Assembly (NCBI GenBank): GCA_019359435.1
Contig: JAHHHI010000055.1
Coordinates: 124,001-188,000 of the forward strand
DNA: 64,000 nt
From: Kaiparowitsia implicata GSE-PSE-MK54-09C
GTDB lineage: Bacteria; Cyanobacteriota; Cyanobacteriia; Elainellales; Elainellaceae
Reading direction: 5' to 3'
Part shown: positions 2,359 through 56,776 of the stretch, in pieces
How the letters are laid out: every line of letters begins with the position of its first letter
Numbering within the stretch: position 1 is the stretch's first letter
Notes under the pieces: generated by a model
Database searches by the model: none
What the model was told of the DNA's origin: nothing
The model's input: only the letters and a program-made list of their open reading frames with translations
Program-made: the position numbers and the translations under genes

Positions 2359-3219
2359 TCATCCTTTACCCTCAATCTCAGCTAGCAGGTGCTCGGCTTC
2401 TTGGCAGAGCTGCGTATGGCACAATCCATTGCTCGCCAGCAGCCCGCCCCACTGGCTCACATCGCCTGTGTTGTAGCGCAGCGGCGCACCGCTGAAATGG
2501 GTAAACTGGCCGCCCGCTTCGGTGAGGATGAGTTCTGGTGCGGCCATATCCCAATCCTTGGGGGCAGATTTGCCCGATAGCGACAGGTACACATCTGCCC
2601 GCTGATCGACGATGGCCGCAATCTTGCCGCCCACGCTGCCCACCGCCAGTTGTTTTTGGCACGAGAGCTGCTGCAAGAGCTGATTAAACCGCTCGTCGCG
2701 GTGGGTGCGGCTGACGACGACTGTGAGATCTGCGGGGCGATCGCACGTTGAAACCTGCCCCGCTGTCACCGTCCCATCCGCAGTTTCCACAAAGGTGCCG
2801 CCGCCCAGTTTCGCAAAATAGAGCCGCTCGGCCTCGGGGCAAGCGACCACCGCCATCACCGGACGCCCCCCGTGGGTGAGCGCCAGGTGAAACGCATACT
2901 CTCCGGTCTGGTCAATAAAGTCGCGGGTGCCATCCAGCGGGTCGATAATCCACACCCAGTCTTGAGGAAACGGCGCATTTGCAGCGCTGGCTTTATAGGT
3001 TTCTTCGCTGAGGTAGCCAAACTGCTCAGTGCCCACCGCCTGCTGCAATGCATCTAGCACATACCGATTCACCGCCAAATCTGCCGCCGTCACTGGCCCA
3101 TCTTTTTTGTTTTGAATGTCTAATCCTTTCTGGCTGCCGTCATCTGGGGAAACGCCGCGATAGTAGGCGCGCAAAATCTTAGAGGCTCCCCAGCCAATGG
3201 TTCGGGCGATCGCCATCAT
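2359..3219 (-). CDS. Inositol-monophosphatase-family phosphatase, probably 3'(2'),5'-bisphosphate nucleotidase
   Basis: A Mg2+-dependent phosphatase of the IMPase/CysQ family. From the start used here, the metal-binding acidic LSEET lies near residues 70-74, motif IDPLDGT at 92-98, and the second motif WDMAAPELILTEAGG lies nearer the C terminus. CysQ-type enzymes dephosphorylate PAP, the by-product of sulfotransferases, and PAPS; inositol phosphate or fructose bisphosphate are alternatives. An open frame reaches 3366, three bases from the oppositely oriented neighbour, but its first 49 residues are glycine-rich and unlike the family. The double ATG at 3219/3216 gives the usual N terminus (AIARTIGWGA) and leaves a 149-bp promoter space. 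Confidence 0.82.
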   Translation of the reverse strand: MMAIARTIGWGASKILRAYYRGVSPDDGSQKGLDIQNKKDGPVTAADLAVNRYVLDALQQAVGTEQFGYLSEETYKASAANAPFPQDWVWIIDPLDGTRDFIDQTGEYAFHLALTHGGRPVMAVVACPEAERLYFAKLGGGTFVETADGTVTAGQVSTCDRPADLTVVVSRTHRDERFNQLLQQLSCQKQLAVGSVGGKIAAIVDQRADVYLSLSGKSAPKDWDMAAPELILTEAGGQFTHFSGAPLRYNTGDVSQWGGLLASNGLCHTQLCQEAEHLLAEIEGKG

Positions 3220-3368
3220 GGCCTCTACCGACGTTCCTGCAATCTCACCGCCCCCATCTTGACCCAAGCCACTGCCTAACTGCTGCACCACACCTCTACC
3301 CTCAACGACTGCCCCGCCATTATATTGGTCGAAGTTCTTCTCAGCATCCCCATACCCCCTCAGCACCC

Positions 3369-4070
3369 ATGGCTCGCGGCGACCAAATTTACGTAATGCG
3401 GCCCTTTCTTCAGCTCAATGGCGTGTATGAGCACCACGGCATCGACTGCGGCGATAGCACCGTCATTCACTACAGCAAAGTGGAATCAGACCCCGTCATC
3501 CGGCGCACCCCTTGGGCTGACTTTTCCTGGGGAAACCCCGTGTCAGTGAAAGAGTATGTCGCCAGCTACATTCCCGATGTGGTGGTGGAGCGGGCAGAAA
3601 GTCGCTTGGGCGAACGCCGCTATAACCTCACCGCCAACAACTGCGAACACTTTGCCACCTGGTGCAAAATAGGGCGCAACGACAGTCGGCAGATTTCTAA
3701 CTTTAGTCTGGATCTCAACCTGGTAGACTTGGCGCGGCGCGGCGGCTTGGTGAATGAAGCGGCACAAGAGGGCGATCCCATTCAAGCAGCGGCGACGATT
3801 GAGCAGGCGTTGCATAATGTGGCGATCGCCCGTCATCAGCTCAACAGCCAAATTCAGCAGGCCGAACACGAGCAAGACACCTGGCACCGCGTAGCCCAAC
3901 TGGCTCTTAAACAAGCCAAAGAACCTGCTGCCCGCGCCGCCCTAGAGCACAAAGTCGCGGTTAAACGCAAACTGCCCGATCTCTATACTCAGCGCGACCA
4001 ACTGCAGCAGATGGAAGCCAACCTGCTCCAACAAAAAACCCGCTTAAAACAGCAAATCGCCATTCTGTAA
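3369..4070 (+). CDS. LRAT-like (NlpC/P60 superfamily) NC-domain protein with C-terminal coiled coil
   Basis: 233 residues. Residues 1-110 form an LRAT-type domain: the H-box YEHHGIDCG (His22/His23, second His-Tyr near 34-35) and the nucleophile motif NNCEHFATW (Cys92). This circularly permuted papain-like fold makes acyltransferases or thioesterases in eukaryotes; the bacterial members have no settled substrate. Residues from about 140 to 233 are rich in Gln, Glu, Lys and Leu heptads and look like a long coiled coil, so the protein may oligomerise or dock on a partner. There is no signal peptide. It is divergent from the phosphatase gene and on the same strand as argF, 156 bp upstream of it. 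Confidence 0.75.
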   Translation: MARGDQIYVMRPFLQLNGVYEHHGIDCGDSTVIHYSKVESDPVIRRTPWADFSWGNPVSVKEYVASYIPDVVVERAESRLGERRYNLTANNCEHFATWCKIGRNDSRQISNFSLDLNLVDLARRGGLVNEAAQEGDPIQAAATIEQALHNVAIARHQLNSQIQQAEHEQDTWHRVAQLALKQAKEPAARAALEHKVAVKRKLPDLYTQRDQLQQMEANLLQQKTRLKQQIAIL

Positions 4071-4226
4071 TGAGGTGCGGTCATGAATGATCGACTCGCG
4101 TTTGTTTTAGCCCCAGTCCCCCAGGCCGAGGTGAAACGCCCTAAATGTGCCGCCGTGGATTGAGAGATTGAGGGGAATCTGATAGGGTTTTGATTCATCC
4201 AGTTCCATCTACCCCCCGCACACCGC

Positions 4227-5147
4227 ATGAAGTCACTAAAGGGACGCGACCTGTTGAGCATGGCAGACCTCAGCCCCGAGGAGGTGCTCGCTATTCTGAG
4301 GCTTGCCGCAGATATGAAATCTGGGGACACCCATGTGCGCTGCGAACGGGTGCTGGGGCTGCTGTTTCAAAAAGCCTCAACCCGCACGCGGGTGAGCTTT
4401 TCGGTCGCGATGTATCAGCTGGGGGGGCAGGTGCTCGACCTCAACGCCAGCGTCACTCAGGTGGGGCGCGGCGAGCCCACTATTGACACGGCGCGCGTGC
4501 TCGATCGCTACCTAGATGTGGTGGCAATCCGCACCTTTGAGCAAAAGGAAATTGAAACCTTTGCCAGCTATGCCGAAATCCCCGTGATCAATGCCCTCAC
4601 CGATCTCGAGCATCCCTGCCAGGTGCTGGCAGATCTCCTGACGATTCAAGAAGAGTTTGGGGCGCTCAACGGGCTCACGCTGACGTATATGGGCGATGGC
4701 AACAACATGGCCCACTCGCTTATGCTGGGCTGTGCGCTGGTGGGCATGAATGTGCGGGTGGCCTGTCCTGCTGAGTTTATGCCCGATGCAGCGGTGGTGG
4801 CTGCCGCCCAAAAGCTCGCGGGCGATCGCACCGACGTTCTGATCACCCAAGACGCCCAGCTCGCCGCCAAGGGCAGCCATGTCGTGTATACCGACGTGTG
4901 GGCTAGCATGGGGCAAGAGTCTGAAGCCCAAAGCCGCGTGCCTCTGTTCCAGCCCTATCAGGTGAACGCCGAGGTGATGGAGCTGGCCGACCCCTCTGCG
5001 ATTGTGCTGCACTGCCTGCCGGCCCACCGCGAAGAAGAGATTACCGACGAGGTGTTGGAGGGCGAGCAATCTCGCGTGTGGGATGAAGCGGAGAACCGCC
5101 TTCATGCCCAAAAGGCGCTTCTGGCGATGATTTTGGGCGTTGATTAA
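4227..5147 (+). CDS. argF: Ornithine carbamoyltransferase
   Basis: Condenses carbamoyl phosphate and ornithine to citrulline in arginine synthesis. The 306-residue length is typical. Carbamoyl-phosphate site STRTR is at 51-55, HPCQ at 129-132, and the ornithine-side HCLPAHR at 262-268, all intact. The ATG at 4227 gives MKSLKGRDLL, the expected cyanobacterial N terminus. Its last eight bases overlap the start of the downstream cofG gene if cofG uses its TTG start, suggesting co-transcription and possibly translational coupling. No ARG-box-like operator was recognised upstream. Confidence 0.96.
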   Translation: MKSLKGRDLLSMADLSPEEVLAILRLAADMKSGDTHVRCERVLGLLFQKASTRTRVSFSVAMYQLGGQVLDLNASVTQVGRGEPTIDTARVLDRYLDVVAIRTFEQKEIETFASYAEIPVINALTDLEHPCQVLADLLTIQEEFGALNGLTLTYMGDGNNMAHSLMLGCALVGMNVRVACPAEFMPDAAVVAAAQKLAGDRTDVLITQDAQLAAKGSHVVYTDVWASMGQESEAQSRVPLFQPYQVNAEVMELADPSAIVLHCLPAHREEEITDEVLEGEQSRVWDEAENRLHAQKALLAMILGVD

Positions 5148-6123
5148 AGCCTCTGATGCCGTGACTGCACCTGTCATCACCTATAGCCCGGCCTACACGC
5201 TGGTGCCCACCTATGAGTGCTTCAATCGGTGCAGTTACTGCAACTTTCGCGTGAACCCAGGCGAGGATGCATGGATGACGCTGGCCGAGGCAGACGCCAC
5301 GCTGCGATCGCTCCGTCCCCACGGTGTGATCGAAATCCTGATTCTCAGCGGCGAAGTGCATCCTAACAGTCCTCGGCGCGCAACGTGGTTTCAGCGCATC
5401 TATGATCTGTGCGCTCTGGCGCTGCGGCTGGGTTTTTTGCCCCACACCAATGCCGGACCGCTGAGCCACGACGAGATGGCACAGCTGAAATCGGTCAACG
5501 TGTCGATGGGGCTGATGCTCGAGCAGGTGACACCCACCTTGCAAGAGACGGTGCATCGGCACGCCCCGAGCAAAGCTCCAGCCCTGCGGGTGCAGCAGTT
5601 GGCCTGGGCCGGAGAGTTACACATCCCGTTTACGACAGGGCTGCTGCTGGGTTTGGGAGAATGCGAGGCAGACTGGGCCGAGACGCTGCGGGCGATCGCC
5701 CACTTGCACCAGCGCTATGGGCATATTCAAGAAGTGATTTTGCAGCCCCACAGTCCGGGGCACCAGCAGGCGTGGCCGGGGGAGCAACTCTCAACCGATC
5801 AGCTGGTCAGGGCGATCGCCCTAGCGCGGCAGGTGTTGCCCCCCGATATCACCCTCCAAATTCCGCCTAACCTGGTTTCCCAACCTAAGGATCTGTGGCG
5901 CTGCTTGAGCGCGGGTGCCCGAGACCTGGGCGGCATTGGCCCCAAAGACGAAGTGAACCCCGACTATCCCCATCCCCATAATGCCGCGTTGGCAGACACC
6001 CTGAACCAGGCGGGCTGGCACTTGCAGCCTCGTCTACCGATTTATCCCCACTATGACGATTGGCTGGATGCACCCTTGGGCGATCGCGTGGCGGCGTGGC
6101 GTCAGACAATCCAGAACATTTAG
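5140..6123 (+). CDS. cofG: 7,8-didemethyl-8-hydroxy-5-deazariboflavin (FO) synthase subunit CofG
   Basis: A radical-SAM enzyme that, with CofH, builds the deazaflavin FO. In cyanobacteria FO serves as the antenna chromophore of some DNA photolyases. The [4Fe-4S]-binding CxxxCxxC is at C27-C31-C34 (ECFNRCSYCNF). The following SGE and LGLGE segments match the family, and the length of 327 residues is normal. The start is uncertain: TTG at 5140 lies inside argF, while an in-frame GTG at 5161 lies 14 bp beyond the argF stop and would give a 320-residue protein. Neither has an obvious Shine-Dalgarno. cofH and a photolyase gene are not in the window. Confidence 0.9.
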   Translation: MIKASDAVTAPVITYSPAYTLVPTYECFNRCSYCNFRVNPGEDAWMTLAEADATLRSLRPHGVIEILILSGEVHPNSPRRATWFQRIYDLCALALRLGFLPHTNAGPLSHDEMAQLKSVNVSMGLMLEQVTPTLQETVHRHAPSKAPALRVQQLAWAGELHIPFTTGLLLGLGECEADWAETLRAIAHLHQRYGHIQEVILQPHSPGHQQAWPGEQLSTDQLVRAIALARQVLPPDITLQIPPNLVSQPKDLWRCLSAGARDLGGIGPKDEVNPDYPHPHNAALADTLNQAGWHLQPRLPIYPHYDDWLDAPLGDRVAAWRQTIQNI

Positions 6124-6254
6124 ACAAGTCACGTTCGGCAGAGCCAGTTGATCTCAACTCCTCTGCGACAGAAATTCCACGACTGGGCAGCAACGCAGGC
6201 AAAGGGTCTAGGCCATCTCCAGTAAAGAATTTTTCTGCATGGGGCAAGTAGGCA

Positions 6255-6277
6255 TAAGCCGTAACGCCTTTGGCTTA
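6255..6277. terminator. Weak hairpin between convergent cofG and the DCC gene
   Basis: Six-bp arms TAAGCC and GGCTTA around an 11-nt loop, in the spacer where the two genes converge. There is no T-run, so a terminator role is only suggested by position. The rest of 6124-6340 shows nothing recognisable. Confidence 0.25.
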
Positions 6278-6340
6278 GCTGCGCCAACATGCTTACAATC
6301 TCGCTTCAACGCTCAATTCAAGACTCCATCGAGACCTTAA

Positions 6341-6802
6341 TCAAGGCTCCAAATCAGGCTGGGTAAACTGTTTGGCGCAGGCATCACCGTCGCAACGGGA
6401 ATAGTCCGACATGTAAAGGTCAGTGCGTTTGCCAAACAAGTCGTAGCGATTGTCGCGCACCTGTTCATAGAGGCGATCGCCCCCCCACTTGACGCCGGGT
6501 ATCGATCGATACAGTTGCACAAAGGCAGATCCGGCAGGCAGCAGACGGCCAATTTCCTCTGCCGCCGCACTGCCCTGCCAGCGTTGCTCGGGATGAGCAG
6601 TCTTTAGCAAAATCATGCCCAGTTTGCAGTCTGCCGACGTAATGCTAAAGTCTGCCAGCGTAGCGGCATCCTGCATGGGGGCATAACAGAAGCGATCGCC
6701 CCGGTCGAGCGATTCCAGCAGGCGCACCAGCGTCACACAAAGATTGCAGTGGCCGTCATAAATCACTAGATAGGGTGCCGTCATCGTGGGGATAGCAGGC
6801 AT
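6341..6802 (-). CDS. DCC-family thiol-disulfide oxidoreductase (DUF393)
   Basis: 153 residues with the family signature YDGHCNLC near the N terminus, giving a thioredoxin-like CxxC at C19-C22, and the RDNRYDLFGKR segment near the C terminus. It is likely a cytoplasmic redox protein; substrates of this family are mostly unknown. The open frame extends to 6892, but the ATG at 6802 is preceded by GAGGAG eight bases upstream and gives MPAIPTMTAPYLVIYDG, the normal family length, so that start is used. It is divergent from comFB across a 541-bp spacer. Confidence 0.85.
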   Translation of the reverse strand: MPAIPTMTAPYLVIYDGHCNLCVTLVRLLESLDRGDRFCYAPMQDAATLADFSITSADCKLGMILLKTAHPEQRWQGSAAAEEIGRLLPAGSAFVQLYRSIPGVKWGGDRLYEQVRDNRYDLFGKRTDLYMSDYSRCDGDACAKQFTQPDLEP

Positions 6803-7343
6803 AGACAGCGCTCCTCGATAAATAATTTGAAATACTTTGAAGCGGAGATGAAAATCCCCTAAACGCAATAAATAGTTAAGAACCCGTGACAAATGAGCAT
6901 CAACTTCCTAGAAAATACGTAGATTTCAAGGAAAATTCTCAAAATTTAGCGACTTGATTTGCAGATCCACGGATAGATTCATTATGATAGATCCACGCGA
7001 TCGAGTATATCTACCGAGCACCCCCCAGTGCGAGGTAGGCCAAGACGGTAACGATGCCCGTGGCAGTAGCCTTATGCAAACGTTGCCAGCATTGAATGCT
7101 TTTTCCATCCAGATCACGCCTCCTCCCAGGCATATGGTTGCCCATGGGTCAGGGTTTGTGGCATCTGGAACACGGTTTTCGGTTACGCGTTCCAGCCCAA
7201 TTGTCCGATGTATCCGTCCGACGCATCCGTCTAACGCATCCGGTCGTCTGGAGCCCGACAGGTGCCCGACGCCTACACAATTGCCCCAATGCCTATAACC
7301 ATTAGCCCATGCGAATTTGTGCCTAAGTAGGGAGTGCCGCACT
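6803..7343. other. Long divergent spacer upstream of comFB
   Basis: No credible gene: frames at 6926-7342 and 6954-7298 overlap each other on opposite strands and resemble no family. The left part (6840-7000) is AT-richer. The right part carries a three-unit 13-bp direct repeat, listed separately. It should hold promoters for both flanking genes. Confidence 0.5.
7206..7245. repeat. Three 13-bp direct repeats about 100 bp upstream of comFB
   Basis: Units CGATGTATCCGTC, CGACGCATCCGTC and TAACGCATCCGGTC follow head to tail. The shared core is GCATCCG. The position before a regulated signalling gene makes an operator possible, but no known regulator site is recognised. Confidence 0.5.
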
Positions 7344-7988
7344 ATGAATGTTTACAAGAATGTGATGGAAATGCTGGTCGAGCAGGAGGTAGAACGCCAA
7401 CTGCTGGCGATGTCGCCGCGGGCTGCATCCCACATTAATCGGTTAGAACTGGTGGCCTATGCGCTAAACCAGTTGCCCTCTCTCTATGCCACCAGCAAAC
7501 GGGGGCTGCAATATCAGCTTCAGGTGGGCAAACAAAAGTATGCTGAGCAGATTGCTCAGGCGGTGCATCAGGCGATCGCCGCCGTCAATCGTGACCCCCT
7601 TCGCACGTCTGCCCCACTCAAGCTGAAGGAGCCGCGTGTGATTCAGCCAGTCATGGCGCAGTTGCGCAAACTGCTGCACAATGAGCAACTCAGTTGGGAT
7701 GCCTTGCCCAAAGCGATTGAATTGGCGCTGTCTTCTACTGCGGCGTCTATGGACTCAATGTCCAGTGGTACTCCATCCAGCATTGGCAACTATCGTCGCC
7801 CCGGAGCCTACAGCCGCACTACCTCATCCCCCTATCCAGCCAATCGCTACTCCGGGTTTCCCGATGGGGACGAAACCGCGGCCCTACCCGATACCTCTGG
7901 TCAGTCGCGCCCGGCGGCAGCTCCCGCCTCCACCTCACCCTATTCCCAAGAAGATGCCCTTAGTTGGGATGACCCCTTCTTTCGCTAA
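7344..7988 (+). CDS. comFB: ComFB-family protein (putative c-di-GMP receptor)
   Basis: 214 residues. The N-terminal ~90 residues (MNVYKNVMEMLVEQEVERQL..., with NRLEL and ALNQLPSLYATS) match the late-competence ComFB domain. Cyanobacterial ComFB-type proteins have been reported to bind cyclic di-GMP and influence motility, natural competence or cell size. The C-terminal third is Ser/Pro/Thr-rich and looks disordered. The ATG at 7344 follows GGGAG nine bases upstream; an upstream in-frame start at 7317 adds nine residues without a ribosome site. No competence genes lie nearby. Confidence 0.83.
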   Translation: MNVYKNVMEMLVEQEVERQLLAMSPRAASHINRLELVAYALNQLPSLYATSKRGLQYQLQVGKQKYAEQIAQAVHQAIAAVNRDPLRTSAPLKLKEPRVIQPVMAQLRKLLHNEQLSWDALPKAIELALSSTAASMDSMSSGTPSSIGNYRRPGAYSRTTSSPYPANRYSGFPDGDETAALPDTSGQSRPAAAPASTSPYSQEDALSWDDPFFR

Positions 7989-8028
7989 CGGCAGAGTAGG
8001 CCAGAGCAGGATGCGCTCACTCGGGTGC

Positions 8029-8961
8029 TCATTCGGGTATAGTGCGCGTTGATACCCGTGATCCCCACACGGCGATCGCCACCCCTAGCAGCACCACCAA
8101 CGCCCCCAGCAGCACCACGCCCCCCGGATTTTCGCGAAACACCAGATAGCCCAGCACCGCAGACCCCACCGGTTCTGCCAGAATGGTGAGCGTGACCAGC
8201 GTAGGCGACACCCAGCGCACCGACCAATTGAGGCTGGTGTGCCCAATAGCCTGCGGAAATAGCGCCATCAACGCCACATAGCCATAGACTGCCGGGGAGA
8301 AGCCCCCATAGCTTGCGCCCACCAGCGGCGGCAGCGGCAGCAGCGTTAACGCTGCGAACGAATAGGTCAGCACCGCGTGGCGACCAATGGGCAGGCCGCG
8401 CTGCTGGGCTTCGCGGCCTAACAAAAAATAAAGGCTTACCGCCCAAGACCCTACCAGCGCCAGCCCGTTTCCGAGAAGCGGGTTAAGGCTGGCCGTGCTA
8501 TTGCCGCCATCGCCCAGGCTGATTACGATGCTGCCCACTAAGGCAGTGGCAATGCCAACGATGGTGAGACGCGACGGAATTTCGTGAAACCATCGCCACG
8601 ATAATAGCGCCACCCATACGGGATTTGTAGTGACTAGCGCAGTAGACGCAGCAATGGAGGTATAGGAGAGGGACGTGATCCAGGCGGCGAAATGGATGGC
8701 TAGAAACAGCCCCGCTGCGATGGAGTAACGCATGGCAGACGGCTCTAACGGTCGATCGCCCCCTTGCCGCCAAGCCGGAGCCACAATCAAACTGGCGATC
8801 GACATTCGCGCTGCCGCTAGCACCAGGCTCACCCCTAGGCCGCTGCTATCCGCCGCTTGCAGCGCTAGGCGAATAAAGATAGCCGCCGTCGAAACCGACA
8901 AAATTCCAATGGTCAAAATGGTGGCGATCGCCCACCGCGAGGGTCGGGGTGCAGAATGCAT
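8029..8961 (-). CDS. EamA/DMT-family permease
   Basis: A 310-residue integral membrane protein with about ten hydrophobic helices arranged as two EamA repeats. The N terminus AIATILTIGILSVSTAAIFIRLAL is typical, and the second-half segment PVGSAVLGYLVFREN resembles the end of RhaT/YdcZ-like transporters. It probably exports or imports small metabolites; the substrate cannot be told. The open frame starts at 9045, but the ATG at 8961 has GAGGAA eleven bases upstream and removes a non-family extension that would overlap the neighbouring gene. It is in the same direction as, and 22 bp downstream of, the coiled-coil gene at 8984-9367, so they may be co-transcribed. Confidence 0.85.
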   Translation of the reverse strand: MHSAPRPSRWAIATILTIGILSVSTAAIFIRLALQAADSSGLGVSLVLAAARMSIASLIVAPAWRQGGDRPLEPSAMRYSIAAGLFLAIHFAAWITSLSYTSIAASTALVTTNPVWVALLSWRWFHEIPSRLTIVGIATALVGSIVISLGDGGNSTASLNPLLGNGLALVGSWAVSLYFLLGREAQQRGLPIGRHAVLTYSFAALTLLPLPPLVGASYGGFSPAVYGYVALMALFPQAIGHTSLNWSVRWVSPTLVTLTILAEPVGSAVLGYLVFRENPGGVVLLGALVVLLGVAIAVWGSRVSTRTIPE

Positions 8962-8983
8962 CAGCAGCGTTTCCTCACGACAC

Positions 8984-9367
8984 CTAACCCGCACAGCTAC
9001 GCAACACCCAGCCCAGCACCACACCCAAGCTGACAAACCGCACAATCTGCCAAAATAGCTCCCGCACCCACGTGCTAGAAATCAGCTTGCTTTCTAGCGC
9101 CACTTCTAACTCCAACAAGCGTTGCTGCAACTGGTCTATTTCAGTTTTGAGCGATCGCAGCTTGGTCGCTCGATATTCTTGCTTTGCCTGCGACAGGCGC
9201 GCCTGCAACTCTCGCTGCTGCAGTTGGTCAGAGTGCACCTGGGCATAGCGCATTTTGAGATCATGGAGCGATCGCTCCATCTCGGTTAGCGCCTGCTCAA
9301 TATTGACCTCGGTTGCATCCTGAGAATTAGAATTTTGGGAATTGGAGCCGTTGGCGGGGCGCGTCAT
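8984..9367 (-). CDS. Small coiled-coil protein with C-terminal membrane anchor
   Basis: 127 residues, unnamed. Residues 1-20 are Asn/Ser-rich. About residues 22-95 form a continuous coiled coil rich in Gln, Leu, Glu and Arg. Residues ~105-123 (IVRFVSLGVVLGWVLRSC) form a single transmembrane helix, so it is probably a tail-anchored protein with its coiled coil in the cytoplasm. The length and the tail pattern W-V-R-E-L-F-W look like a conserved cyanobacterial hypothetical family. The role is unknown. Confidence 0.7.
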   Translation of the reverse strand: MTRPANGSNSQNSNSQDATEVNIEQALTEMERSLHDLKMRYAQVHSDQLQQRELQARLSQAKQEYRATKLRSLKTEIDQLQQRLLELEVALESKLISSTWVRELFWQIVRFVSLGVVLGWVLRSCAG

Positions 9368-9476
9368 GAAGCCTAAACACCCAGAGCTTGCTAGAGTGAA
9401 ATCAACACTATAGCAACCGCCGCACGCATAGCACCAACCCGTCCCCCCAAACCCTAAGCATCCACGTTATTTACCC

Positions 9477-45115: not shown

Positions 45116-46372
45116 ATGGACGCATCGGTTGCATCATTAGAATCAGCGGCGATCGCCCATCTCCGCACCCCCCAAGCCATTCGCGAACGCTGTGGGGTCT
45201 TGTTTGAGCAGGCGTGCGCTGGCCGGTTGCAGCATTTTCGCTGCAATCTTGATCGGCTAGATGCCACCGCAGACTATGTGCTGACAGTGATGCACGCCAA
45301 CTATCCCACTCTAGACGTGCCGTTTCACAGCCGCTGGCGACACTTTGGGGCAGGCGGCGTCGATCGGCGGGCGCAACTGGCGCAGCAGTTGGCCGCGCTC
45401 GACCCTGTGGAACGGGCACGGGTGCACTATGACTTGGTGATTCCTAGCGTGCTGCTAGATGCCGGTGCTGGAGCCGCGTGGCACTATCATGAGGCAGAAT
45501 CAGGAATCACGCTGGGACGATCAGAGGGGTTGGCGATCGCCAGCTATCACCTCTTCCTCAGCGGTGCGCTCTCAGACGACGACGCTAACCCGCTGCAAAC
45601 CACCGCAGCCGGGTTGGAAACACTGACGGAAGCGACCCTGTGCCAACGTTTTCAGGTAAGCGACGCCAATCCTCTCGTGGGCGTCGCGGGGCGACTGGCG
45701 CTCATGCAGAGGCTGGGGCGAAGCCTGCGGCAGCATTCCCACTACTTCACAACGGATGGCTCCAAACCACCGCGACCGGGGTATCTGGTGGATTATTTGC
45801 TCGATCAGGCTGTGGGCAATCAGCTCTCGGCCCCGGTGGTGCTGGGTGCGGTGCTGGAGGGGTTGGGCGATATTTGGGCGGGGCGCATCACCCTAGGCGA
45901 CACAAATTTGGGCGACGTGTGGCCCCATTCGGCTCTGCCGCACGATGCACCGGGCAGCAATCTGGTACCGTTTCACAAGCTGTCGCAGTGGCTGACCTAT
46001 TCGCTGCTAGAGCCGCTGCAAGCGTTGGGGCTGACCATTACCGATTTAGATCAGTTGACGGGTTTGGCAGAATATCGCAACGGTGGACTGTGCGTAGATT
46101 TGGGGCTGCTGACACCCCGATATCCTGACATTCTGACAGACCGGCATTTGCCCAGTGCCGAGGTAATTGTGGAATGGCGGGCGCTGACGGTAGCGCTGCT
46201 AGATCGGGTGGGCGATCGCATCCGCACCCAACTCCACCTCAGCCCGGTGGAGCTACCCTTGGTCAAAATTCTCGAAGGCGGCACCTGGGCAGCAGGCCGC
46301 AAAATCGCGGCAGACCTGCGCCCCGACGGCAGCCCTCCCATCCAGATTAACAGCGACGGCACTGTATTTTAG
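45116..46372 (+). CDS. URC4/Urg3-family protein (DUF1688), uracil catabolism
   Basis: 418 residues. The pattern (LRTPQAIRERCGVLFEQACAGRLQHF, HSRWRHF, LVIPSVLLDAGAGAAWHYHE, SEGLAIASYHLF, PRPGYLVDYLL, LGDVWPHSALP, VPFHKLSQWLTYSLLEPL, RNGGLCVDLGLL) matches DUF1688, the family of yeast Urc4/Urg3. URC4 is required for uracil use by the URC pathway in Lachancea kluyveri; its exact reaction is unresolved. It converges on the URC1-type gene, 62 bp apart. The ATG at 45116 gives MDASVASLESAAIAHL. The spacer 44862-45115 shows nothing recognisable. Confidence 0.85.
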   Translation: MDASVASLESAAIAHLRTPQAIRERCGVLFEQACAGRLQHFRCNLDRLDATADYVLTVMHANYPTLDVPFHSRWRHFGAGGVDRRAQLAQQLAALDPVERARVHYDLVIPSVLLDAGAGAAWHYHEAESGITLGRSEGLAIASYHLFLSGALSDDDANPLQTTAAGLETLTEATLCQRFQVSDANPLVGVAGRLALMQRLGRSLRQHSHYFTTDGSKPPRPGYLVDYLLDQAVGNQLSAPVVLGAVLEGLGDIWAGRITLGDTNLGDVWPHSALPHDAPGSNLVPFHKLSQWLTYSLLEPLQALGLTITDLDQLTGLAEYRNGGLCVDLGLLTPRYPDILTDRHLPSAEVIVEWRALTVALLDRVGDRIRTQLHLSPVELPLVKILEGGTWAAGRKIAADLRPDGSPPIQINSDGTVF

Positions 46373-46434: not shown

Positions 46435-47700
46435 TTACGAATAATCGCGCCCCTTAATTTTTGCCAGATCTTCTTCGCTGAGCCCCCCCGTGTCGGAATA
46501 GTAGCCTGCGGATTTCTTCGCTTCAATTTCAACCTGAGCATCCGCTGGCACCAGCTCCGGCGGGATGGGGATGCGTTCTACCACCTCAATCCCGGAGTGG
46601 GTGATGGCGTTGTATTTAAGATTGCTCATCGACACCAGCTGATCAATTTTGGTAATGCCCAACCAGTGCAACACATCGGGCATCAGCTCCTGAAAGCGCA
46701 TGTCTTGCACCCCGGCCACACATTCGGTGCGGAGGAAGTAGGCATCCGCGCGATCGCCCCCTTCTTGGCGTTTTCGAGCGTTATAGACCAAAAACTTAGT
46801 CACTTCGCCCAGCGCCCGCCCTTCTTTGCGGCAGTAGACAATGATCCCTGTGCCGCCCGCCTGCGCAGCCTGAATGCACACCTCAATACCATGCACCAGG
46901 TAAGGACGGCAGGTGCAAATATCAGAGCCAAACACATCAGACCCATTGCACTCGTCGTGGACGCGGAGCGCGAGCGGCTTAGTGGGGTCGGCGATCGCCC
47001 CAATATCGCCCACGATATAGACGGTGGTGCCCCCAATCGGCGGCAAAAACACATGCAGGTCTTGCCGCGTCACCAGTTCGGGGAACATGCCCCCCGTTTG
47101 CTGAAACAAAATGCGGCGCAGTTCCCACTCATCCACATTCAGCCGCTTGGCAATGCCAGGAAGATACCAAACCGGGTCGATAGCGGCTTTAGTCACCCGC
47201 AGGTTGCCGTCGGCCTTGAGCAGCGTGCCGTCTACCTTAAGTCGCCCCTTCGCAATCTCATCCTTCAGCTCGGGGATTTGGATATGGGCCTTGGTCACAG
47301 CAATGGTGGGGCCAATATCGTAGTCATCTTTAGGAAACTGGGAGGAAAAGATATTCGGGGCGATCGCCCCCAACGGATCAAGCGACACAATTTTGTCTGG
47401 GTCACTCCAACTCGGGTATGGCCCAAACTCTACAACCGGTGCAGTATTGGTAAAGTCGGCCTTGTGGTTAGGGTCGAGCACACCGCTTGCCACCGCCAGC
47501 GCCCGATACACGCTGTAGGCGCCGCCCATCGTGCCAATCACGTTACGGTGGTTGCGGCTCCGCACCGAGCCAATGATAGGCCCCCGCTCTAGGGGATCAC
47601 TCGCCCCCCAGCGAATGGGATGAACCTTCTCGCCTGTGGCATTGGGATGAGACGTTAGGATAATGTGCTTACGCTTTTGCGGAGACTGAGCATCGGTCAT
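46435..47700 (-). CDS. URC1-type GTP cyclohydrolase II-like protein (uracil catabolism)
   Basis: 421 residues, longer than RibA. Residues ~1-190 match the GTP_CH_N-type extension (GEKVHPIRWGASDPLERGPIIGSV, RNVIGTMGGAYSVYRAL, NTAPVVEFGPYPSW). About residues 210-380 are RibA-like: the zinc ligands ECNGSDVFGSDICTC (C-x10-C-x-C) and YCRKEGRALGE are conserved. URC1 of yeast is required for uracil degradation and is thought to act on a uridine nucleotide instead of GTP. Its neighbours URC4 (convergent) and upp (divergent) support this role over riboflavin synthesis. The spacer to upp is AT-rich. Confidence 0.85.
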   Translation of the reverse strand: MTDAQSPQKRKHIILTSHPNATGEKVHPIRWGASDPLERGPIIGSVRSRNHRNVIGTMGGAYSVYRALAVASGVLDPNHKADFTNTAPVVEFGPYPSWSDPDKIVSLDPLGAIAPNIFSSQFPKDDYDIGPTIAVTKAHIQIPELKDEIAKGRLKVDGTLLKADGNLRVTKAAIDPVWYLPGIAKRLNVDEWELRRILFQQTGGMFPELVTRQDLHVFLPPIGGTTVYIVGDIGAIADPTKPLALRVHDECNGSDVFGSDICTCRPYLVHGIEVCIQAAQAGGTGIIVYCRKEGRALGEVTKFLVYNARKRQEGGDRADAYFLRTECVAGVQDMRFQELMPDVLHWLGITKIDQLVSMSNLKYNAITHSGIEVVERIPIPPELVPADAQVEIEAKKSAGYYSDTGGLSEEDLAKIKGRDYS

Positions 47701-48058
47701 GGCAACTAACCTGCACCCCTATGGGGAAAATCTAATTGAGAGTGGTACAGTAATCCTACCTTAAGAATCCACTGAACAACTGTCCGTCATAATCACTTCA
47801 TCACGACAGAAACTTAGGTCTTAAACCTTGCAGTCTACTCCTTAAATTAATAAAAATAAACCCATAGAAATCAATGTTCAAAAGTTCTCAAATCATAGTC
47901 TCTTCAGAACACTAGACACAGTCTTTCTTAGCCTCTAAAAAGGCTGTCTGTTTAATACATTTACAGTTCTGAGATATGTCTTGACAAACTGAATAGTTGC
48001 CCTTTTCCATTATCAAAGTTCTTGACATTCTTACTCTCTATTGCATCTCATAATGATA
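47701..48058. other. AT-rich divergent control region between URC1-like gene and upp
   Basis: About 360 bp clearly richer in A+T than the flanking genes, with no HIP1. TTGACA boxes occur at 47981 and 48022, but neither has a -10 hexamer at a good 16-18 bp spacing. A small AGCCT/AGGCT hairpin is near 47929-47944. Both genes are probably controlled here, so this is where a pyrimidine- or nitrogen-responsive site would be sought. Confidence 0.5.
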
Positions 48059-48694
48059 ATGACGCCTAACCTACAGCTCATCCAACATCCACTGGTGCAG
48101 CATAAACTCACGCTGATGCGTCGAGTCGATACCCACACGCAAGATTTTCGACGGCTGATGAAAGAAATTTCGCTGCTGCTGGCCTACGAAGTCACTCGCG
48201 ATTTAGCTTTAAAGAAAGAGCTGATTCAAACCCCAATTGCAACAACCCAAGCCCCGGTATTGGCCGCAGAGAAAAATATGGTCATTGTGTCAATCATGCG
48301 AGCAGGACAAGGGCTTTTGGATGGCATGCTTGAGCTGATTCCTACTGCAAAAGTAGGGCACATTGGGCTATATCGTGAACCCACAACATTAACGGTAGTG
48401 GAATATTATTTGAAGCTGCCCAATGACACTGATCAGCGCGATATGTTAGTGGTTGACCCCATGCTAGCGACGGGCAACTCTGCAGTCGCAGCCGTGGAGC
48501 GATTGAAGGAAGCAAACCCACTGTCGATCAAATTTGTATGCCTGCTCGCGGCACCGGAGGGCATTGCCCAATTTCAGGAGCAGCATCCCGATGTGCCGAT
48601 TTACACGGCTTCTGTCGATGAGCGGCTCGATGAGCATGGCTACATTGTGCCGGGACTAGGGGATGCGGGCGATCGCCTATTTGGCACGAAGTAA
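48059..48694 (+). CDS. upp: Uracil phosphoribosyltransferase
   Basis: 211 residues. Makes UMP from uracil and PRPP. The N terminus [18 protein letters not shown] and the PRPP motif [19 protein letters not shown] are typical, and the C-terminal [30 protein letters not shown] is the UPRT signature. The frame opens at a TTG (48041); ATGs at 48053 and 48059 are likelier, with no clear Shine-Dalgarno. In the URC pathway UPRT supplies UMP; here it is divergent from the URC1-like gene, so the pair may be coregulated. Codon use is more AT-rich than in neighbours. Confidence 0.95.
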
Positions 48695-48793: not shown

Positions 48794-50890
48794 CTATGCC
48801 GACACCATCGAAGGCGAGGTAGAAGGAGCGATCGCCCCGGCCTCTGCTGAGAGGCTCACTGGAATTTCGATCAGAACGTCAGTTCCCTGTTGGGGCACAG
48901 AGGCAACCGTAAGGTGCCCACCATGCTGGTGTACTACGGTTTGAAAGCTAACCGCCAGACCCAGCCCGCACCCTTGACCGACCGCCTTGGTCGTAAAGAA
49001 GGGGTCAAATATCTTAGCTTCCAACTCTGGATCAATGCCGCAGCCGTTATCTGAAATCACGATACGAACCCACGGGCACTGCTGTTCTGGGTGGTGAAAG
49101 GCTTCAGTGGTGATGGTAATGAGTTTCTGCGGGCGATCGCTCAACCCCAGCGCCTCCACTGCGTTAATCAGCAAGTTCATAAACACCTGGTTCATCAGCG
49201 CAGGATAGCACTCTACCTCCGGTAACTCGCCATAGTTGCGGCGCATCTCAATGTCTTGCGAGACTTGCTGATGCACCATTGCCAGGGTGCTGTTCAACCC
49301 ATCATGGAGATTAACCACCTTGCAGTTAGCTTCATCTAGCCGAGCAAAATTTCGCAGCGCCAGCACTATCTCCCGAATCCTGCCCGCTCCAGACTTCATG
49401 GATTGCAGAATGCGTGGCAAATCTTGCACCAAAAAATCGTAATCGATCTCGTCGCGCAAGCGTTCGAGATCTAGCGTATTGACTGTGGACTGCTGAGAGC
49501 CCTCAACCATCTGCATTAAATCGTGGACGTAGCGCTCAACATAGGGAATATTGCCGTAGATAAAACTGATGGGGTTGTTAATTTCATGGGCTACACCCGC
49601 CACCATCTGCCCCAAACTCGACATTTTTTCGCTTTGAATCAGCTGCGCCTGGGTTCGCTGCAGCGCTTGCAGGGCCTCAGTCAGGCGCTCAGCTTGGGCT
49701 GCACTCTCGGCAGCCTGCTGCCGCATTTGGTGGTAAAGATGGGCCTGCTGAATTGAAATCGCCAACTGGTCGGCAACCGCTTGTGCCAGCTTTTGATCGT
49801 CTTTGCTCCAGTAGCGCACATTGGCGCATTGGTTCAGGTAAAGAATGGCTTGCAGTCTGCCGTTCGCCTGCGCCGGAATCACCAGCGAGGATTTAATCTG
49901 AGATAGCTGGTATTCCTGATTGTCTGTTCCGATCCGCGCATCTTCTGAGACGTCAGACACGACGACCTGCTGGCGGTTTTGAATCACCCATTGAGTCATG
50001 GGGCCGTTGGTATCAAAGTAGTCGATGGAGGGCTGAAAGGGAGCACGGCACACCTCAAACAGGTGCTTCCGGCGGAAGACCTGCTGCATCCCCTCAGGCG
50101 GCAAGTCGGCCTCTACAGGGGCGATCGCCTCATCATCTTCATCGGGATCTTCCACCAAATGAACCAGGCAGCGATCAACATGCAGGGCGTCGAGCAGTTG
50201 GGCGATCGCCTCAGGCAAAATAGCTTTTAGATCAAGGCTCTGGCGAGTTTGGGTGGTGATCCGGTTCACTAGCCGCTCTCGTTTGGCCTGCTTTTGAGTG
50301 CGTTCATAGAGCTGCGCTTGGCAAATCGCGATACTGAGCTGCTGGGCGATCGCCTGCACAAACTCGACTTCTGCCACAGTCCACTGGCGATCGCCCACCC
50401 CACTGCACACAATAAATCCGGTTGATCCATCCTGCCCACCCACTGGGATCAGAATTGAAGCCTTCGTGTCAGCCCCTAGCAGCGCATCGGGTTGAGAGGC
50501 CGGGCAATCGCGCAGTAGCGCTGTCAGCAATTCCAGGCCTGACGGTTTGGGGACGTGGCCTACACTCACCACCAGTTCTCCCCGCTGAATCAGCGGAGCC
50601 ACAGCCTCTAGCCGCGACAACGCATAATGCCCCAGGCACGAGGGCAGATCAGCTCGACTGCGCTCACAGACAACCTGCACCCGCTCTAAGTCTGGAAAAT
50701 ACCAGAAGAAGAGGCACTGGTGCGTCTGCAAAAGCTCTGCAATTTCATCCACAGCTGTTTGCAGGACTACTGGCAATTCTAGCGAATTGCGGATTCGATC
50801 AACCACGTGCCGCAGCAGCGCATCTTGACGCGTGGTATGGAGACAATTGTCAGGATGAGGAACTTCAGGTGAATTTGGGGAAGACGACAC
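48794..50890 (-). CDS. GAF-domain sensor histidine kinase
   Basis: 698 residues, soluble. Two GAF domains are at ~30-200 and ~215-395 (LVIPAQANGRLQAILYLNQC, WTVAEVEFVQAIAQQLSIAICQAQLYERTQ), then a coiled coil to the H-box SLGQMVAGVAHEINNPISF with His435, and an HATPase domain with N box (MNLLINAVEAL), DNGCGID and GCGLGLAVSF. No transmembrane helix and no adjacent response regulator, so it is an orphan cytoplasmic kinase. The GAF domains show no obvious bilin Cys. The ligand is unknown; it lies between upp and the deaminase gene, which hints at but does not prove a link to pyrimidine sensing. Confidence 0.88.
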   Translation of the reverse strand: MSSSPNSPEVPHPDNCLHTTRQDALLRHVVDRIRNSLELPVVLQTAVDEIAELLQTHQCLFFWYFPDLERVQVVCERSRADLPSCLGHYALSRLEAVAPLIQRGELVVSVGHVPKPSGLELLTALLRDCPASQPDALLGADTKASILIPVGGQDGSTGFIVCSGVGDRQWTVAEVEFVQAIAQQLSIAICQAQLYERTQKQAKRERLVNRITTQTRQSLDLKAILPEAIAQLLDALHVDRCLVHLVEDPDEDDEAIAPVEADLPPEGMQQVFRRKHLFEVCRAPFQPSIDYFDTNGPMTQWVIQNRQQVVVSDVSEDARIGTDNQEYQLSQIKSSLVIPAQANGRLQAILYLNQCANVRYWSKDDQKLAQAVADQLAISIQQAHLYHQMRQQAAESAAQAERLTEALQALQRTQAQLIQSEKMSSLGQMVAGVAHEINNPISFIYGNIPYVERYVHDLMQMVEGSQQSTVNTLDLERLRDEIDYDFLVQDLPRILQSMKSGAGRIREIVLALRNFARLDEANCKVVNLHDGLNSTLAMVHQQVSQDIEMRRNYGELPEVECYPALMNQVFMNLLINAVEALGLSDRPQKLITITTEAFHHPEQQCPWVRIVISDNGCGIDPELEAKIFDPFFTTKAVGQGCGLGLAVSFQTVVHQHGGHLTVASVPQQGTDVLIEIPVSLSAEAGAIAPSTSPSMVSA

Positions 50891-51952: not shown

Positions 51953-52177
51953 ATGACTACGTTACTTCAAGCCCCAACGGATGCAGCTCTCCGGCAGAAT
52001 GGCTCCCTACACGATGTGGTGGATCACATTGTCGCATCTCGCCAAATCACCCGCGCCGATCAGCGCCGTCTTATGAGCGCAGCCCTGGCAGCAGGCGATT
52101 TCACCCTAGAAGATCAACAGTTGGTTGAGCAGATTTTTGCCGGGCTGCGCCGAGGTACGTTCAAGGTCGTCGATTAG
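51953..52177 (+). CDS. Small conserved cyanobacterial protein (hypothetical)
   Basis: 74 residues. It has a helical DNA/RNA- or protein-contact look: SLHDVVDHIVASRQITRADQRRLMSAALAAGDFTLEDQQLVEQIFAGLRRGTFKVVD. The segment RRLMSAALAAGDFTLEDQQLVEQIFAGLRRG looks like a pattern repeated across many cyanobacterial small proteins, with no assigned role. It starts at ATG 51953, 115 bp upstream of the deaminase gene on the same strand, and may be its leader gene. Confidence 0.65.
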   Translation: MTTLLQAPTDAALRQNGSLHDVVDHIVASRQITRADQRRLMSAALAAGDFTLEDQQLVEQIFAGLRRGTFKVVD

Positions 52178-52292: not shown

Positions 52293-53606
52293 ATGACTCA
52301 ACCACCCGCTCGTCTCTTGCTGCGCAATTGTTGTTTGCTCCATCCCACCGAACCGCCTCAGCAGGTGGATATTGCTATCGACGGCGATCGCATTGGGGCG
52401 ATCGCCCCGCATCTCGACGAACCCGCCGAGGTCGAACTTAATGTGCGCGGGCAGATCGTCAGTCCACCCTTTGTCGAATCGCACATTCATCTTGATTCGG
52501 CCCTGACGGTAGGGGAGCCTCGCTGGAATGAGAGCGGCACGCTGTTTGAGGGAATTGACATTTGGCGAGAGCGGAAGCAAACGCTCACGCTGGCGGATGT
52601 CAAAGAACGGGCGATCGCCACTCTGAAACAACAGGCGATGCAGGGTGTATTGTTTGTCCGCACCCATGCCGACGTGAGTGAGCAGACGCTCACCGCTCTA
52701 CAGGGCTTGCTAGAAGTACGCGATGCGGTGCGCGACTGGATCACGGTGCAAGTGGTCGCCTTTCCGCAGGATGGCGTGTATGGCAGCCCCAAAAACGAAG
52801 AACTGCTGGAAGAAGCCCTGCGCCTTGGGGCCGACGCAGTAGGCGGCATTCCCCATTACGAGCTAACTCGGGAAGATGGAGTGCGCTCGGTGCATCGCAT
52901 TTTTGAACTCGCCGCCCAATATGATCGTTTAATCGACATCCACTGCGACGAAATCGATGACGACCAAGCTCGGTTTCTGGAAGTGATGGTGGCCTGTGCC
53001 ATTCGCAGCGGTATGGGATCGCGTGTTGCCGCAAGCCATACCACAGCGTTTCACTCCTATAACAACGCCTACGCCTTTAAGTTGATGGGCTTTTTACAGC
53101 GCACCGACATCAACTTCATCGCTAATCCACTGATCAACATCACCCTGCAAGGGCGATCCGATACCTATCCCAAGCGGCGGGGCGTGACTCGTGTGAAAGA
53201 ACTCTGGCAGCAGGGGCAAAACGTGAGCCTGGGTCACGACTGCGTGCAAGACCCTTGGTATGGGCTGGGTACGGGCAACATGCTCGATGTAGCCAGCATG
53301 GCGATTCATGTGTGCCAGATGACTGGCTCTGCCGAGATGGATGCCTGCTACAACATGGTGACTTGGAATGGGGCAAAAACCCTACAAGTCGAGGATCGCT
53401 ATGGCATTGAGGTGGGCAAACCCGCAAACCTAGTGGTGCTCGATGCAGACAGTCGCTATGACGCGCTGCGCCGTCGGGCCACAGTTCGCCATGTGATTTC
53501 GCAGGGCCGTCTAATTGCGCAAACAGAGCCACCCCGGTCGCAGTGGATGGTGGCGGATGAGTCTACCCCCGCTTTAAACATGCCCAGCATACTAATGCAG
53601 CCCTAA
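52293..53606 (+). CDS. CodA-type cytosine deaminase family; possible 5-methylcytosine deaminase
   Basis: 437 residues. Amidohydrolase with metal ligands H64/H66 (SHIHLD), H217 in HCDEIDDDQARF (E220 catalytic), H249 (SHTTAFHSYN) and D316 (GHDC). The DTYPKRRGVTRVKELW and DPWYGLGTGNML segments match E. coli CodA closely. Residue 317, which aligns with CodA Asp314, is Cys. In published work, CodA homologues lacking Asp314 deaminate 5-methylcytosine to thymine. So uracil or thymine could be the product. ATG 52293 is preceded by AGGA and is preferred over GTG 52278. Confidence 0.9.
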   Translation: MTQPPARLLLRNCCLLHPTEPPQQVDIAIDGDRIGAIAPHLDEPAEVELNVRGQIVSPPFVESHIHLDSALTVGEPRWNESGTLFEGIDIWRERKQTLTLADVKERAIATLKQQAMQGVLFVRTHADVSEQTLTALQGLLEVRDAVRDWITVQVVAFPQDGVYGSPKNEELLEEALRLGADAVGGIPHYELTREDGVRSVHRIFELAAQYDRLIDIHCDEIDDDQARFLEVMVACAIRSGMGSRVAASHTTAFHSYNNAYAFKLMGFLQRTDINFIANPLINITLQGRSDTYPKRRGVTRVKELWQQGQNVSLGHDCVQDPWYGLGTGNMLDVASMAIHVCQMTGSAEMDACYNMVTWNGAKTLQVEDRYGIEVGKPANLVVLDADSRYDALRRRATVRHVISQGRLIAQTEPPRSQWMVADESTPALNMPSILMQP

Positions 53607-55489: not shown

Positions 55490-56776
55490 ATGGCCAGGTT
55501 TCGTCGAATGGGTAGGGCGATCGCAAGTAGTCTTGTCTTAGCCAGCATTGCCGGCTGCATGAGCGGGCACACCTGGGCAGGCAATACCAACAATACCGAC
55601 CCCAATAGGCCACCCTCAGAGCATCCCAGCGTGCAACACTCCTCACTCTCAGACATGAACCCCGAGGTATCTGCCGCCCAAACCCGATTTGCCTTTAACC
55701 TGCTGGCTCAGGTGGCTCCCCAAGCCAATGGGGAAAATCTGATGATTTCGCCGTCTAGCGTGGCGATCGCCCTGTCGATGCTCTATAACGGGGCCAGCGG
55801 CGACACCCAGCAGGCCATGACCGAGGCGCTCGCCCTGCAAGAGGTGACCATTGACGACTTGAACAGCAGCAACGCAATCCTCAAGCAGCAGTTAGAAACG
55901 GCTGATCCCAATGTTCGGGTGGCGATCGCCAACTCACTGTGGATGCGCGATAGCTTTCCCGTCAACAGCGGATTTCTCGAAACAAACCAGGACTACTATG
56001 ATGCGGAAGTCAGCGCGATAGACTTCGACAATCCGGCTGCGGTCAACACCATCAATGACTGGGTCAGCCGCAATACTGAGGGAAAAATCCCCACGATTCT
56101 GGACAACATCAATCCCGATGATGTGATGTTTTTGATCAACGCCATCTACTTCAACGGCGCATGGAGCGCGCCCTTTAACCCGAGAGAGACGATGGATCGT
56201 CTGTTCTATACTCCAGATGGAACGAGCAGTGACAGCCCCTTTATGAGCCAGCGGGGCTCCTATCAATACCTAGCGAACGACCAGTTTCAGGCAATTCACC
56301 TGCCCTATGGCGACTCGCAACAGATGAGCATGGTGGTGATGCTGCCGAGTGAGTCCAGCACCCTTCCCGAGCTTCTCAGCAGCCTGTCTTCTGACCAGTG
56401 GGAGAGCTGGATGGAGCAGTTTCGCCGCCAAGAGGGCATGATTCAATTGCCCCGCTTCACCTCAGACTATAGTGTGTCGCTGAATGAGACGCTCAAGGCA
56501 ATGGGCATGGCGGTGGCCTTTAGCCCTAGCGAGGCAGACTTTGCAGGCATTAGCCCAGAGCAAATTTACGTGAGTGATGTCAAGCACAAGACCTATATTG
56601 ACGTGAACGAGCAGGGAACAGAAGCGGCCGCTGCGACCTCTATCGGCGTGACCACCACCTCAATGCCGATTGACCCACCGTTCTTTATGGTGTGCGATCG
56701 CCCCTTTTTCTACGCCATTCAAGACAACGAAACGGGCACTATTCTGTTTATGGGAACGGTTGTGAACCCAAACTAG
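55490..56776 (+). CDS. Serpin-family lipoprotein
   Basis: 428 residues. A lipoprotein signal ends at IAGC (Cys23), an Lgt substrate, so the protein should be membrane-anchored in the envelope. The body is a serpin: SPSSVAIALSMLYNGASGDT, NAIYFNGAWSAPF, and the reactive centre loop whose hinge NEQGTEAAAAT starts at Asn373 (P17 = Glu374). Gly at P15, Thr at P14 and an Ala-rich hinge are features of inhibitory serpins. The 17-residue rule puts P1 near Thr390. Target proteases are unknown. AGGAG lies 9 bp before ATG 55490. Confidence 0.93.
   Translation: MARFRRMGRAIASSLVLASIAGCMSGHTWAGNTNNTDPNRPPSEHPSVQHSSLSDMNPEVSAAQTRFAFNLLAQVAPQANGENLMISPSSVAIALSMLYNGASGDTQQAMTEALALQEVTIDDLNSSNAILKQQLETADPNVRVAIANSLWMRDSFPVNSGFLETNQDYYDAEVSAIDFDNPAAVNTINDWVSRNTEGKIPTILDNINPDDVMFLINAIYFNGAWSAPFNPRETMDRLFYTPDGTSSDSPFMSQRGSYQYLANDQFQAIHLPYGDSQQMSMVVMLPSESSTLPELLSSLSSDQWESWMEQFRRQEGMIQLPRFTSDYSVSLNETLKAMGMAVAFSPSEADFAGISPEQIYVSDVKHKTYIDVNEQGTEAAAATSIGVTTTSMPIDPPFFMVCDRPFFYAIQDNETGTILFMGTVVNPN

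Follow-up and report, generated by a model that had tools for sequence, protein, structure and literature searches.

The window, a stretch of 64,000 nucleotides from the cyanobacterium Kaiparowitsia implicata, contains a codA gene whose product is probably a metal-dependent cytosine deaminase of the CodA type, relaxed in its pocket at C5, feeding uracil to salvage and to the URC route and deaminating 5-methylcytosine (5mC) as a side or second activity. To judge from family models and active-site residues, the gene is a CodA orthologue and an ordinary-looking cytosine deaminase gene, in which the Asp314 of E. coli CodA is replaced by Cys. The positions of codA, of two of its codons and of the uracil genes are collected in Table 1.

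Table 1. Features of the codA region and their coordinates in the window.
Feature	Position	Strand	Detail
codA, cytosine deaminase (amidohydrolase superfamily), Cys at CodA Asp314 position	52293..53606	+	437 aa
Codon 281 (Ile), CodA position 278, pocket residue	53133..53135	+	
Codon 317 (TGC, Cys), CodA position 314, adjoining metal-binding Asp316	53241..53243	+	
URC4 (DUF1688, PF07958), uracil catabolism	45116..46372	+	501 bits
URC1-type protein (GTP cyclohydrolase II-like)	46435..47700	-	PRK07198, 718 bits
upp, uracil phosphoribosyltransferase (URC6-like role)	48041..48694	+	285 bits

The ORF of codA starts with ATG, and an in-frame GTG lies 15 bases further upstream. The product scores 561.5 bits with the NCBIfam family model PRK09230 (cytosine deaminase, EC 3.5.4.1), whose cut-off is 483; the cut-off of PRK07572 is likewise exceeded, and Pfam Amidohydro_3 is also matched. 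In the phmmer alignment, residues 46–416 are aligned to E. coli CodA (1k6w) with E = 5.6e-142, and the identity in the matched part is 57%. The metal ligands His61, His63, His214 and Asp313 and the catalytic residues Gln156, Glu217, His246 and Trp319 (CodA numbering) are all kept, and Phe154, NPL.N and YPKRRG are also shared with E. coli CodA (1k6w, 3o7u). The initial annotation, made from the letters of the DNA, had already pointed to the metal ligands and to the HCDEIDDDQ, DTYPKRRG and DPWYGLGT segments as those of CodA, and these are present as claimed. Unlike E. coli CodA, the window protein has Cys314, Ile278, Gln316 and Phe250, that is, the differences near the pocket are Asp314Cys, Phe316Gln, Val278Ile and Met250Phe; moreover, the gene is not adjacent to codB, as it is in E. 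coli.

The same annotation placed Cys317 at the discriminating Asp314 position, and this is borne out by an alignment free of gaps around the site (window ...VSLGHDCVQDPWYGLGT versus CodA ...VCFGHDDVFDPWYPLGT, phmmer) and by the PDB entries of the CodA mutants D314A, D314S and D314G, in which the letter A, S or G stands exactly opposite Cys317. The alignment with E. coli CodA and the Klebsiella enzyme that it had called for was run, and gave Asp in CodA, Ser in the Klebsiella enzyme and Cys in the window protein. The AlphaFold2 model of the window protein is superimposed on 3o7u, 1k6w and 4r7w with Z scores of 52.0, 51.4 and 50.9, respectively; its mean pLDDT is 79 and falls below 50 at residues 284–294 and 320–327, so that the loop after Cys317 is of low confidence and the model speaks for fold and register, not for side-chain geometry. 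The Asp314 by which E. coli-type enzymes exclude 5-methyl substrates is missing here, and this specificity residue lies outside what the family-model threshold covers; the window protein is a CodA homologue without Asp at 314, the trait associated with bacterial 5mC deaminases. With Kpn00632 of Klebsiella pneumoniae (4r7w, 4r85, 4r88) it shares the fold, the absence of Asp at 314 and Gln316. It does not belong to the Kpn00632 subgroup, which is defined by Ser314 and CPTES: the window protein has Cys and NPLIN (NPLVN in CodA), GHDC in place of AQDS, and a separate branch of the tree.

The distribution of Cys314 was followed in a set of 148 homologues from cyanobacterial genomes, named genome contigs and plasmid-collection records. 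Of the 124 sequences that make up the main cyanobacterial branch, 123 have Cys; the 24 sequences outside it comprise 10 with Cys, 7 with Asp and 7 with Ser. All 10 members of a sister branch of proteobacterial type have Cys; eight of them come from proteobacteria, and the other two, L024 and L025, from cyanobacteria with 3-Mb genomes. On the homologues compared, Cys314 thus characterises the cyanobacterial branch as a whole and is no peculiarity of the window gene. It is encoded by TGC in 85 and by TGT in 48 homologues, and its retention is more than chance, since the codons vary silently while the residue stays. In a tree built from 60 sequences, the Ser-type sequences form one branch (support 98/90), and a branch with support 100/99 has all the Cys sequences, cyanobacterial as well as alpha- and betaproteobacterial, on one side. 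In the same tree, L024 and L025 fall together with Azospirillum and Cupriavidus, a placement that suggests gene transfer as the source of their codA. The proteobacterial Cys type (Ruegeria, Haematobacter, Rhizobium, Azospirillum, Cupriavidus and possibly Rsp0341) shares Cys314 with the window protein from this sister branch, but differs in an identity of about 45–50%, in mostly having Met316, and in having genes for an ABC importer as neighbours in those annotated records that were examined. As a side observation, the L213 locus of a 3-Mb cyanobacterium (G177:C1:399000-417000, 3140-9380) has a proteobacterial-type Cys codA lying divergently beside genes that resemble an ABC importer, an association that occurs in alphaproteobacteria too.

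The sole Asp within the Cys side of the tree is L039 (genome G391, of the window's own family), which is sister to the Cys-bearing L034 with support 100/98. Because it is the only Asp among Cys sequences and stands beside L034, a reversion from Cys to Asp is the most likely origin. Its codon GAT differs from TGC at three positions, of which two are required for the amino-acid change, and L034 and L039 show 57 differences over the aligned part.

Asp314 and Val278 have been described as being among the important active-site residues that distinguish CodA from AtzC (PMC4577212). Among the homologues, Asp is paired with Val in 8/8 sequences, Ser with Glu in 7/7 and Cys with Ile in 131/133, the two exceptions being L024 and L025, both with Val at 278; that is to say, residues 314 and 278 change together in this alignment. 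At seven positions, L039 has a residue shared with none of the other cyanobacteria, and only at two of these, 278 and 314, does it equal E. coli, so that it carries the E. coli pair Asp/Val with both pocket positions apparently reverted together; this two-position pattern, both positions of which lie in the pocket, was spotted after the fact and is a lead, no test. Tentatively, and with rather less than even confidence, 314/278 may be regarded as a two-residue specificity switch, of which the cyanobacterial Cys/Ile state would permit 5mC and the Asp/Val state of L039 would have flipped back to cytosine only. If so, L034 and L039 would be a natural pair of close relatives for measuring the selective value of accepting 5-methylcytosine. 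The co-varying residues together with a natural revertant offer a simple test of how C5 specificity evolves in the CodA-type family.

As for activity, PMC6186785 (citing Hitchcock 2014, with numbering one higher) describes CodA as essentially inactive on 5-methylcytosine, its alanine mutant at the Asp position as gaining 5mC activity, and the Klebsiella enzyme as having Ser at the discriminating residue. The mutant and the Klebsiella enzyme uphold the earlier statement that loss of Asp314 permits 5mC deamination. Since Asp is absent at 314, its loss is known to allow 5mC and Cys is conserved in the clade, it is plausible that the window enzyme accepts 5mC as a second activity, and its C5 specificity is predicted to be relaxed; by its residues it is 5mC-enzyme-like at one position and CodA-like elsewhere. 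Two Rhodobacterales homologues (Ruegeria and Haematobacter), which are relatives of Rsp0341 of Rhodobacter sphaeroides, also have Cys at 314, and homologues of R. sphaeroides itself were sought in the plasmid collection, with none among the matches listed. Rsp0341 has reportedly been assayed as a 5mC deaminase, and by analogy the Cys type may already have been proven active through it. If the Cys type accepts 5mC, many cyanobacterial families would be able to remove free 5-methylcytosine, on whose fate in cyanobacteria we know of no study, and a natural sensitivity to 5-fluorocytosine would be expected of such cyanobacteria, one that would defeat counterselection with codA in these strains.

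The URC1-URC4-upp cluster recurs across cyanobacteria. It has been reported that the yeast URC pathway converts uracil into 3-hydroxypropionate and urea (PMC7530994). One cluster holding URC1, URC4 and uracil phosphoribosyltransferase is the feature shared with URC uracil catabolism as known from Lachancea kluyveri and from bacteria; CodA has no defined part in that pathway, and the window CodA would simply supply uracil to it. Among 386 cyanobacterial genomes, codA is found in 21, URC4 in 33 and both in 15, an association (Fisher p of 1e-13 by genome) that is inflated through kinship and to which genome size perhaps contributes too. Counted by hand from the listed labels (42 families), p rises to 2e-6 for genera and 2e-4 for families, kinship being only partly removed by these counts. 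Among the 25 genomes of the family to which the window belongs, 24 carry the two genes together, and the remaining one, which is incomplete (78%), has neither. The co-occurrence of codA and URC4 suggests a route from cytosine to nitrogen in cyanobacteria. In the window, upp and codA are 3.6 kb apart and codA and URC4 about 6 kb, the latter distance being 11.5 kb in G405; in the other codA loci with such flanks, URC genes within 8 kb of codA were not found. That is, codA co-occurs with URC4, and clustering with URC1/URC4 was not seen in more than one genome. The suggestion of the initial annotation that the enzyme feeds thymine to nearby catabolic genes is not supported: the nearby URC genes serve to degrade uracil, and other loci do not preserve their proximity to codA. 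Also encoded in the genome are three xanthine/uracil-type permeases and a cytosine permease of the CodB type (427 bits with PRK11017, cut-off 326).

In the proposed mechanism, cytosine would be imported via the CodB-type permease or released by nucleic-acid turnover; the metal and Glu217 would activate a water molecule, which would replace the 4-amino group of cytosine; and uracil would then be converted into UMP through Upp or into nitrogen through the URC route. Lacking the charged Asp314, the enzyme would be expected to convert 5-methylcytosine into thymine as well and to act fast on 5-fluorocytosine. The main flow is likely from cytosine to uracil, with 5mC to thymine as a plausible second activity. 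The fate of the two products differs in the gene content of the genome: thymidine kinase (PF00265) gave no match in the genome and was positive in 8/14 control genomes by the same search, and the C-terminal domain of pyrimidine-nucleoside phosphorylase (PF07831) was absent from it and positive in 9/14 controls, so that thymine would be without the textbook route to dTMP here. For uracil, we infer two uses in this cell, UMP via Upp or breakdown via URC.

HIP1 (GCGATCGC) occurs 139 times in the 64-kb window versus about 1.5 expected from base composition, and one C5-cytosine methyltransferase is found in the genome; 5mC may therefore exist in the DNA of K. implicata. CGATCG-specific methyltransferases, mostly 5mC enzymes, are common in cyanobacteria and generally accompany frequent HIP1 (PMC4390886). 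Of the earlier idea that HIP1 sites may carry 5mC, the high frequency of HIP1 and the presence of a C5-methyltransferase stood, and nothing was found that ties codA to 5mC; the further idea, recycling of methylated cytosine from DNA to yield thymine, is not supported, as neither thymidine kinase nor pyrimidine-nucleoside phosphorylase was found in the genome. The sole C5-methyltransferase found (L176, G000:C104, 2-2676) adjoins a gene resembling an ATP-binding protein. It perhaps serves in a restriction or defence system and not as the HIP1 methylase.

Other explanations must be weighed against the same evidence. The enzyme might be an ordinary cytosine deaminase whose Cys314 is neutral or structural, with 5mC still excluded, for example by the larger Ile278 filling the space of Asp. 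Two Rhodobacterales homologues with Cys, in the kinship of Rsp0341, which is said to be an assayed 5mC deaminase, speak against this. So does the acquisition of 5mC activity by CodA without Asp314 (PMC6186785). These points make it unlikely, even though the metal ligands, catalytic residues and NPL.N equal those of E. coli CodA (Klebsiella has CPTES instead), residue 278 is larger wherever 314 is Cys (two exceptions apart) and the genome context points to uracil. Quite doubtful is the proposal of the initial annotation, a dedicated 5-methylcytosine deaminase recycling the methylated cytosine of its own DNA: Cys at the discriminating site, the HIP1-rich genome with its one C5-methyltransferase and a second putative cytosine deaminase (PRK07583), which could free CodA to specialise, can be read in its favour. 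Against these stand the missing thymidine kinase and phosphorylase, the fact that CGATCG 5mC methyltransferases are common (PMC4390886) while codA is present in just 21/386 genomes, and URC4 as the partner that tracks codA.

Very improbable is a main substrate of another kind, as amidohydrolases often have: a different aminopyrimidine or a heterocycle related to it, for instance isocytosine or a creatinine-like or pterin-like compound. The superfamily is promiscuous, and 314 and 278 are among the residues that set CodA apart from AtzC, the next structural neighbour (PMC4577212), but the remaining catalytic residues equal those of CodA and the score is above the curated cutoff of the cytosine deaminase subfamily. 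Against the preferred CodA-URC reading itself, in other cyanobacteria neither URC nor upp shares an operon with codA, and the PRK07583 deaminase in the genome could handle cytosine instead.

This PRK07583 "cytosine deaminase" lies at G000:C55:346.3-347.7 kb (662 bits, cut-off 403), so CodA may not be the sole cytosine deaminase of the genome. Its gene stands behind genes resembling the substrate-binding, ATPase and permease parts of an ABC importer (L219, G000:C55:339000-355000, 3812-8621). Its orthologues adjoin URC1 in two other cyanobacteria (G039 and G099; loci L179 and L181) and codA in L118, positions by which the codA, URC and PRK07583 gene sets are tied together. When the ORFs flanking codA were compared in 29 loci, every neighbour was confined to at most a few close relatives, apart from a group of kinase-like proteins that turned up in eight loci at differing positions; without a widely recurring neighbour, codA looks single. 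The Rfam and tRNA scans of the codA region gave nothing. A 74-aa ORF without NCBIfam match (window 51953-52177, +) directly precedes codA in the same orientation, and some twelve other cyanobacterial codA loci have a homologue of it, with 35–45% identity, upstream of the gene. A GAF-domain histidine kinase (window 48794-50890, -) is divergent from codA, and its homologue adjoins codA in a number of closely related loci, among them L068, L071, L083 and L097. The second gene after codA (window 55490-56776, +) codes for a serpin (PF00079, 396 bits).
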